From Planctomycetales bacterium (GTDB lineage: Bacteria; Planctomycetota; Phycisphaerae; SM23-33): 64,000 nt of DNA. The stretch lies in assembly GCA_030612725.1 (NCBI GenBank), contig JAUWNJ010000002.1:1-64000 (forward strand). Direction: 5' to 3'. Position numbers and translations under genes: made by a program. The first letter of the stretch is position 1. Each line of letters opens with the position of its first letter. The notes under the pieces are model-generated. The model was not told the origin of the DNA and made no database searches. It worked only from the letters and a program-made list of their open reading frames with translations. Shown piece after piece: positions 14,399 through 31,800 of the stretch.

Positions 14399-15427
<1,029 letters not shown>

Positions 15428-15439
15428 AGATTTTATAAC

Positions 15440-15486
15440 GGAAAGAAGAAGCCCAGGGATTTGAATCCCTGGGCTTTTTCTTTCCG
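15440..15486 (+). terminator. Terminator hairpin after gap; palindrome copy 1
   Basis: A perfect 12-bp stem (AGCCCAGGGATT/AATCCCTGGGCT, 15450-15475) with a 2-nt centre is extended by partly paired purine/pyrimidine flanks and followed by TTTTTC. It fits an intrinsic terminator. The same core palindrome recurs at 15869-15890 and 16161-16182. Confidence 0.85.
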
Positions 15487-15524
15487 TATCCCGGATGTTT
15501 TTTTGTGTTCGAGGAGTTCTCATC

Positions 15525-16148
15525 ATGCTCCCGTGGAATAATTGGTTTCACTGTATGGGTTCGACGTACGGCACGTGGGTTCGGGGGGATCAGCGGGGGT
15601 GGCGGGCGCGGCATCATCGTGAACATGTGGATGGTGACTACAAAAATCCTTCACCGCCGGGCAAGTACGATGAGATATTCGCCCATTCCAAAGACTTAAT
15701 GAATCGCGACGAAGTGCTGCTTAACCGGGATCAGCGTGTAATCGCGTGCCTGGAAATGGGCAAGACGTTCCTGTATCACAAAATCGAATTGATTGATCTG
15801 TCCGTCGGCGCGGCGCATTTTCACCTCCTTGCGAGATTCACACCATTGAATGTGGATTTATACAAAAACCCAGGGATTCGAATCCCTGGGCTTAGAGACA
15901 TAACAAAGCTTAATCGATACGAACTGCTCAAGCGCATCGCGCGTCATTACATCGGTATAGCGAAGAAGAACAGTTCTCGCTTGTTGAGTGATGCGGGTCT
16001 GGTTGTTCCGGGTGGTGTCTGGGCGGTTCGCGGAAAGATAAAAGCGATTCGCGATCGTGAGCACCAACTCAACGTGGTTCAGTATATTCGAGATCATGCG
16101 AAAGAAGGCGCTGCGCTCTGGTCGCTTCTGAACAAACAGGCGCAGTAG
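15525..16148 (+). CDS. Y1/IS200-like transposase-related protein carrying an internal palindrome
   Basis: The ATG at 15525 follows GAGGAG and gives 207 residues (MLPWNNWFHCMGSTYGTWV...). AHFHLLARF near residue 107 is a probable HUH-type motif. The segment GGVWAVRGKIKAIRDREHQLNVVQYIRDHAKEGAALW matches the C-terminal half of transposase-like proteins common in Planctomycetota. A perfect palindrome lies in frame at 15869-15890 and encodes NPGIRIPG, in a stretch that from memory is shorter in relatives, so it looks like an insertion. Copies of the same palindrome flank the gene at 15450-15475 and 16161-16182. The protein may therefore be a RAYT acting on these palindromes. Whether it remains functional with the insert is unknown. 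Confidence 0.7.
   Translation: MLPWNNWFHCMGSTYGTWVRGDQRGWRARHHREHVDGDYKNPSPPGKYDEIFAHSKDLMNRDEVLLNRDQRVIACLEMGKTFLYHKIELIDLSVGAAHFHLLARFTPLNVDLYKNPGIRIPGLRDITKLNRYELLKRIARHYIGIAKKNSSRLLSDAGLVVPGGVWAVRGKIKAIRDREHQLNVVQYIRDHAKEGAALWSLLNKQAQ
15869..15890. repeat. Palindrome copy 2, inside the transposase-like gene
   Basis: CCCAGGGATT and AATCCCTGGG meet around a CG centre, forming a fully self-complementary 22-mer within the coding sequence and in frame. It differs from copies 1 and 3 only at the centre. Confidence 0.9.
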
Positions 16149-16160
16149 CGTGGACCTAAG

Positions 16161-16182
16161 CCCAGGGATTTGAATCCCTGGG
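16161..16182. repeat. Palindrome copy 3, downstream of the transposase-like gene
   Basis: It has the same 10-bp arms CCCAGGGATT/AATCCCTGGG around TG, followed by TTTC. It sits 12 nt after the transposase-like stop codon and could also act as its terminator. Confidence 0.9.
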
Positions 16183-16278
16183 TTTCTTTTCAATGCTTGA
16201 AATCAACAGCACATTTGCTGATAGTATGCTCAATAAACCACAGTGTGATTTTGCGAAAACCTTACAAGGATTACAAGA

Positions 16279-17535
16279 ATGACAACCAAGACAATTGCGG
16301 ATATTGACGTTTCCGGTAAAAAGGTGCTGATGCGGGTGGATTTTAATGTCCCGCTGGACAATGGCAAGGTTACGAACGATAAGCGGATCGTCGCCGCCCT
16401 TCCCAGCATTAAGCATGTTCTCGACGGTGGTGGGGCGCTGATTTTGATGAGCCACCTGGGCCGGCCTAAGGGCGAAGGCTTCCAGGCGGAGTTCTCGCTC
16501 AAACCCGTTGCCGATCGCCTGGCTGAACTGCTGGATAGACCCGTAACGCTAGGCCCGCCGGAGGTCGTCGGGGCCGGAACGGAAGAACTCGTCGCGGCAA
16601 TTAAGCCGGGAAATGTCGTCCTGCTGGAGAACGTCCGCTTCCATCCCGGCGAGACCATGCTCGACAAGGCCAGGAAAAATCCCGACGGTCAACTCGCGTT
16701 CGATCAGAGAGAGACGCTTTACGGGTTCGTCCAGGAACTGGGACGATTGGGAGAGGTTTATGTCAACGACGCCTTCGGCACCTGCCATCGCAAGCACGCC
16801 AGCATGTACGGAGCGGCCAAGATTATTAAGGCCAAAGGCGGACCGGCGGTAGCGGGCTTCCTCGTCGAAAAAGAAATCAAATATCTTCACGACGCTATTT
16901 CCGACCCAGCCAAGCCTTTCGTTGTTATTCTCGGCGGGGCGAAGGTCTCCGATAAAATCAAACTCATCTCCACACTGCTTGAAAAAGTTGACCGGATAAT
17001 CATCGGCGGAGCAATGGCCTACACGCTGCTCAAAAGCCAGGGCATCGGCGTCGGTAAAAGCCTCGTTGAGGAAAACCAGGTCGGGTCGATGAAGAACCTG
17101 CTGGCACGGGCGGGTGACAAGATTGTCCTGCCGGAGGACAATATCGTTACGGACGATTTCGACACCGGCAAGCCCCAAACGACCGACGGGCTTGGTATGG
17201 CCGATGATATGCAGGGCATGGACATCGGTTCGGAGACGATTAAAAAATTCAGCGAGATAATCGCCGGTGCGAAAACTATCGTATGGAACGGTCCGATGGG
17301 CGTGTTCGAGAAGCCCGACTACGCAGCCGGGACAAAGGCAATCGCCGAAGCCGTCGCCAAGGCTACAGACGCCGGAGCGGTCAGCGTCATTGGTGGCGGT
17401 GATTCAGCCACTGCCGTTGACCAGATGGGTCTGGCCGAGAAGATGACTCACGTCTCCACCGGCGGCGGGGCGTCGCTGACGTTCCTCGAAGGCAAATCCA
17501 TGCCGGCATTGGAAGTACTGGACCAGAAAGAATAG
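16279..17535 (+). CDS. pgk: Phosphoglycerate kinase
   Basis: The 418-residue kinase has the 3-phosphoglycerate-binding MRVDFNVPLD (residues 18-27), SHLGRPKG, LLENVRFHPGE and VNDAFGTCHRKHAS. It also has the nucleotide-binding VILGGAKVSDK and the hinge/ATP loop VIGGGDSATAV near residue 375. It makes ATP and 3-phosphoglycerate from 1,3-bisphosphoglycerate. The length is slightly above the usual 390-400 because of loops such as KARKNPDGQLAFDQRETLYG. It follows gap on the same strand, but a transposase-like gene and terminators lie between, so it probably has its own promoter. Confidence 0.97.
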   Translation: MTTKTIADIDVSGKKVLMRVDFNVPLDNGKVTNDKRIVAALPSIKHVLDGGGALILMSHLGRPKGEGFQAEFSLKPVADRLAELLDRPVTLGPPEVVGAGTEELVAAIKPGNVVLLENVRFHPGETMLDKARKNPDGQLAFDQRETLYGFVQELGRLGEVYVNDAFGTCHRKHASMYGAAKIIKAKGGPAVAGFLVEKEIKYLHDAISDPAKPFVVILGGAKVSDKIKLISTLLEKVDRIIIGGAMAYTLLKSQGIGVGKSLVEENQVGSMKNLLARAGDKIVLPEDNIVTDDFDTGKPQTTDGLGMADDMQGMDIGSETIKKFSEIIAGAKTIVWNGPMGVFEKPDYAAGTKAIAEAVAKATDAGAVSVIGGGDSATAVDQMGLAEKMTHVSTGGGASLTFLEGKSMPALEVLDQKE

Positions 17536-31768: not shown

Positions 31769-31800
31769 AAAAGCCCACGCATCGCAGTGCATGGGCTTTT
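31769..31800 (-). terminator. Intrinsic terminator downstream of rho
   Basis: AAAAGCCCA and TGGGCTTTT pair around GCA/TGC inner bases, giving a stem with an A-run on one side and a T-run on the other. On the minus strand it follows rho (ends 31832) and precedes the HAD gene. Confidence 0.8.

Follow-up and report, generated by a model that had tools for sequence, protein, structure and literature searches.

Why should a transposase-like gene hold, in frame, the very palindrome that stands before and after it? This question is raised by the junction between gap and pgk in the stretch of 64,000 nucleotides that we analysed (hereafter the window). The left neighbour of the transposase-like gene is gap (glyceraldehyde-3-phosphate dehydrogenase, positions 14411..15427, forward strand), an open reading frame with homologues in 33 of the 37 relatives' genomes, and the right one is pgk (phosphoglycerate kinase, an open reading frame at 16279..17535, forward strand). 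The core CCCAGGGATTYGAATCCCTGGG occurs there three times without any change (15452-15473, 15869-15890 and 16161-16182; 0 expected in 100 shuffles), as the original prediction had it: once before, once inside and once after the gene. With the outer bases included, the repeats extend over 15449-15476 (P1), 15866-15893 (P2) and 16158-16185 (P3). P1 is a REP-like palindrome that makes up a terminator-like hairpin 3' of gap, with a U-rich 3' side, and the RNA of positions 15440-15486 folds with −38.4 kcal/mol (z −9.9). P2 lies in frame within the open reading frame 15525-16148 and codes for residues N115 to G122 (NPGIRIPG), which confirms the reading first made from the letters. P3 is placed directly 3' of the stop codon.

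The window palindrome is a stem variant of a REP family that is dispersed throughout the genus in low copy number, not in hundreds. When up to 2 mismatches were allowed, the exact core was found 4 times in the window genome (3.16 Mb), the sole near copy beyond the window's three being located at C10:71860. The genus-wide family, CCCAG(GG/CC)ATTNNAAT(CC/GG)CTGGG, has 11 copies in the same genome, and 8, 9 and 23 copies in the other three species of the genus, with 0 control hits throughout. In a further genome, G105, the broad palindrome pattern was present 105 times (compare with 6 in controls). The doubt attached to the original prediction, namely that the genome might hold few other copies of the palindrome, was therefore justified for the exact palindrome, which is rare, but not for its REP family. 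An origin of the palindrome from a tRNA T-arm was rejected: the core is T-arm-like, but it is evenly symmetric and part of a dispersed REP family. The window genome also contains a second REP type, a REP-like palindrome AAGCCCACGCATCGCAGTGCATGGGCTT located at positions 31771-31798 of the window, as well as a second Y1 transposase gene with a YVMNQ ending (L264, G000:C9:101500-103127; L265, G001:C261), which is surrounded by its own palindromes, for example ATCCCCCCGCAATGCGGGGGGCT.

The gene between P1 and P3 (15525..16148, forward strand) codes for a protein of 207 amino acids that we describe as a RAYT-like HUH-Y1 transposase on the basis of its homologues, fold and dN/dS; its start is most likely the ATG at 15525, because the homologues begin with M-x-AWN-x-WYH. 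Sequence searches of Pfam, NCBIfam and PDB with the window protein gave nothing significant, and Y1_Tnp was weakly matched by 3 of 18 homologues. The HUH motif H98-F99-H100 (15816..15824, forward strand) has both histidines invariant in 86 homologues; the catalytic Tyr187 of the YIxxH motif (16083..16085, forward strand) is likewise invariant in all 86, and 85 of them have the histidine at +4. An AlphaFold model made with the 86 homologues (mean pLDDT 91.6) resembles IS608 TnpA (Z 11.8 over 104 residues, 2.3 A) and the REP-associated transposase 4er8 (Z 10.5 over 129 residues). With a HUH motif and a single catalytic tyrosine in a TnpA fold, the window protein belongs to the TnpA-Y1 HUH superfamily, and the RAYT-like identity that had been proposed for it is supported by the predicted fold together with the catalytic residues. 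A single full copy of the gene was found in the window genome.

We then considered what P2 means for the protein. The inner palindrome codes for part of a loop (about residues 111-130, pLDDT 62-73) located between the HUH strand (98-104) and the helix 131-156. When aligned with homologues that have a short linker and no palindrome, the window protein shows an extra segment, as had been anticipated. No homologue was seen with NPGIRIPG in the absence of the palindrome, a case that would have spoken against the original prediction; indeed, the peptide changes along with the palindrome. Over the first 115 codons the dN/dS between the window and G003 is 0.097, meaning that the protein has been under purifying selection for most of the separate history of the two. 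Judging from the model and from conservation, the extra loop residues probably leave the fold undisturbed, P2 being translated and tolerated. Among the fates first imagined for the protein, which were to be switched off, tagged or left to tolerate the insert, this low dN/dS in the 5' half, the intact catalytic residues and the position in a loop argue for tolerance. The inner hairpins do not look like intrinsic terminators of the gene, since they are not followed by a T-run on the sense strand (mean of 3.2 T in 12 nt).

The transposase family is found mainly in Planctomycetota. A homologue was detected in 61 of the 397 genomes of the class (E 1e-8); in a draw from the phylum, a single genome outside the class matched at E 1e-20, and a scan of genome contigs gave further homologues outside the class, for example in Gemmataceae. 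Two genes from records titled Candidatus Nealsonbacteria (L146) and Leptolyngbya sp. PLA1 (L180) group with planctomycete genes on the tree and possibly come from mis-binned contigs. We scored 114 loci for palindromes near the gene: upstream, 89 have one within 200 nt; downstream, 64 have one within 130 nt; and in 47 the upstream and downstream palindromes match. Genes of this family are thus usually flanked by REP-like palindromes, which supports that part of the original prediction. The palindrome may be a substrate of the window protein, and the protein may itself have placed the inner copy. A GTAG-tagged REP was rejected, as the GT[AG]G foot is rarer than expected (5 of 396 feet, 1.3% compared with 3.9%), and its absence weighs against the reading that we prefer below; the CnGA foot accounts for 12.1% of feet (7.9% expected). 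Seven genes with YVxxQ-type endings form a separate group on the tree.

The resemblance between inner copy and flanks was scored across the family. In 16 distinct genes, the inner palindrome matches the flanks of its own gene (mean 0.93, compare with 0.46 to the flanks of other genes; permutation p=5e-5). These genes are spread over several parts of a tree that was built with the linker columns partly included, implying at least 7 changes, and their inner copies are in two codon phases. One supported clade (99/93) has an inner palindrome at one site in 8 of its 8 genes, mostly read KPT-xxx-RGL, and several of them have similar residues after it, e.g. RTSAxDDP. Across seven 27-mers of this clade, 4 stem pairs are variable, 12 cells are changed on both sides and 94.5% of the positions are paired, a value that 0 of 500 shuffles reached, in a count that covers seven short sequences and against a control that ignores their relatedness. 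Most family members are without an inner copy, as is L280, a relative of the eight-gene clade. In this clade the inner site therefore looks old and losable, with a sequence that seems to have been replaced in step with the neighbouring REPs; between clades, separate origins of the inner palindromes are likely. L116 and L178 have one palindrome type inside the gene and downstream of it, and another type upstream. Another homologue, L195 (JADLFV010000068.1), holds two palindromes of different types within the gene; their order repeats that of the two palindromes upstream, as though a pair of REPs had been copied in.

Comparison of the gap-pgk junction within the genus gave a second line of evidence. 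In the window, the gene is complete and all three palindromes are there. In G003 the junction consists of P1, the HUH half of the gene and one palindrome, flanked on its left as P2 is and on its right as P3 is, whereas G002 has no gene and a single palindrome, standing at the place of P1; pgk is directly 3' of the palindrome in both. The sequence to the right of P3 is the one that follows the single junction palindrome in G003, and also, with differences, in G002. The breakpoints between these states lie at the palindromes. Nucleotide identity at two loci places G000 and G001 nearest to each other, with G002 next and G003 farthest away. Since the element is present in G000 and G003, this species order, drawn from the two loci, points to a clean loss of the element in G002, although it may instead have been inserted independently. 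The gap gene was not found in G001, whose genome is incomplete. A second half gene, L202, ends shortly past the inner palindrome, and no Tyr half was detected within its locus.

An in-frame REP is also found in the genus in a gene for an FtsX-like permease (L219 in G003, L220 in G002, L221 in G000 and L222 in G001). In the same codon region of this gene, G002 and G003 have the window-type palindrome while G000 and G001 have another REP-like palindrome, of which G000 carries a near copy at C5:71246. This change of REP type supports renewal outside the transposase gene too.

Taken together, these results favour a REP seated in a permissive loop, where it is tolerated, renewed by exchange with the neighbouring REPs and able to act as a deletion point, a reading to which we give a probability of roughly 0.7. 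P1, P2 and P3 would be copies of the low-copy REP family of the genus, with a RAYT-like HUH-Y1 transposase gene between them, and P2 would occupy a loop at the protein surface, after the HUH strand and before the helix that follows, without disturbing the fold. The intragenic site would persist while its sequence is swapped for the REP type beside the gene; the pattern itself is observed, and REP-to-REP exchange or gene conversion may account for it. As P2 and P3 have almost the same sequence, recombination of one with the other would remove the Tyr half and leave a HUH half ending at one palindrome. The half gene of G003 is such a product, and its origin by P2xP3 deletion is what we infer. 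Recombination between P1 and P3 would likewise leave the clean empty site of G002, if the species order is correct.

Several other explanations were weighed against this one. That the in-frame palindrome is a chance or ordinary coding repeat can practically be dismissed, given the shuffles, the 16 genes with matched copies and the peptide that changes along with the palindrome. It is quite unlikely that the inner palindromes were inserted one by one, and recently, at a shared hot spot and do not represent one old, renewed site: the two codon phases, the scatter of the matching genes over the tree and the match of inner types to local REPs speak for it, but all genes of the eight-gene clade have an inner copy, most of them with a shared reading and similar residues after it. 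Very improbable is the idea that transposase genes swap, as a cassette, the 3' half that lies between P2 and P3. It was suggested by free trees of the N-half and C-half that conflict in places, and by L116 and L178, whose shared inner and downstream types are not accompanied by upstream types shared with their N-half sisters; however, AU tests did not reject agreement of the two halves for the key pairs (p 0.44 and 0.36), and the C-half of L178 is more identical to that of L067 (60%) than to that of L116 (54%), so that C-half exchange was not retained.

A further alternative is a functional inner REP. Selection might keep P2 as a control element, with the transposase binding or nicking the inner hairpin of its own gene, as ssDNA or mRNA, or with the palindrome-bounded deletion serving as a self-limiting switch. 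The constant presence and paired stem of the inner copy in the deep clade, its agreement with the flanking type and the half genes that end at P2 speak for such an element. We nevertheless consider it unlikely, for the inner copy is missing from most of the family and from L280, a relative of the clade, a REP is likewise placed in frame and altered in type in the unrelated FtsX-like gene, and the lack of a sense T-run means that the hairpin is not a terminator inside the gene. We regard as doubtful the related proposal that the gene has in its inner REP a conserved functional element, kept in step with the current REP type of the enzyme, and that the element limits itself since the enzyme or P2/P3 recombination removes the catalytic Tyr half. 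In this family the type of the inner copy tracks that of the flanking REPs across deep divergence, and half genes end at it. REP turnover can therefore be counted here at a single fixed position, and the question whether the transposase itself drives REP exchange, relevant to the spread of REPs, becomes open to experiment.

The literature already records REPs placed in frame between HUH and Tyr. Subclass 2.4 of tnpA-REP has such insertions, in general located between HuH and Y, and some genes of subclass 2.8 have them too (Quentin et al. 2018, PMC6006769); those of subclass 2.4 fall in a variable or peripheral surface region, keep the frame and probably have little effect (PMC6006769). What is new here is a lineage without the GTAG foot and with a Y-x3-H motif, the matched turnover and the deletion series. 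The window family resembles tnpA-REP (RAYT) subclass 2.4, or RAYT group 4, in its HUH-Y1 protein, its REP-flanked gene and the in-frame REP between HuH and Y. Subclass 2.4 is characterised by the motifs NH[IFV]H and YIxNNP and by GT[AG]G-footed REPs, and occurs in Cyanobacteria, Bacteroidetes and various phyla (PMC6006769), whereas our family has YIxxH instead of YIxNNP, is without the GT[AG]G foot and is found mainly in Planctomycetota. Of the REPtron features, the REP-flanked gene and the genome-dispersed REP family are present and the GT[AG]G foot is absent. Members of TnpA-Y1 class 3 occur in Planctomycetes and have a YV..EQ-type motif, a CnGA foot and a gene surrounded by atypical hairpins (PMC6006769). 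This class shares with the window family the phylum and the hairpins but not the tyrosine motif, and by its Y motif the window family cannot be placed in any subclass published so far (Quentin et al. 2018, PMC6006769). TnpA proteins of the IS200/IS605 group (IS608, ISDra2) have the same Y1 HUH fold; the window gene differs from them in having no recognised tnpB or IS ends and one full copy in the genome. Finally, REPs are known inside many genes, as short palindromes that are open in frame (Di Nocera et al. 2013, PMC3733652), and Rickettsia palindromic elements are likewise short palindromes in coding genes. The present case is akin to both, but here the host gene is itself a REP-type transposase, and the type of the inner copy follows that of its flanks.
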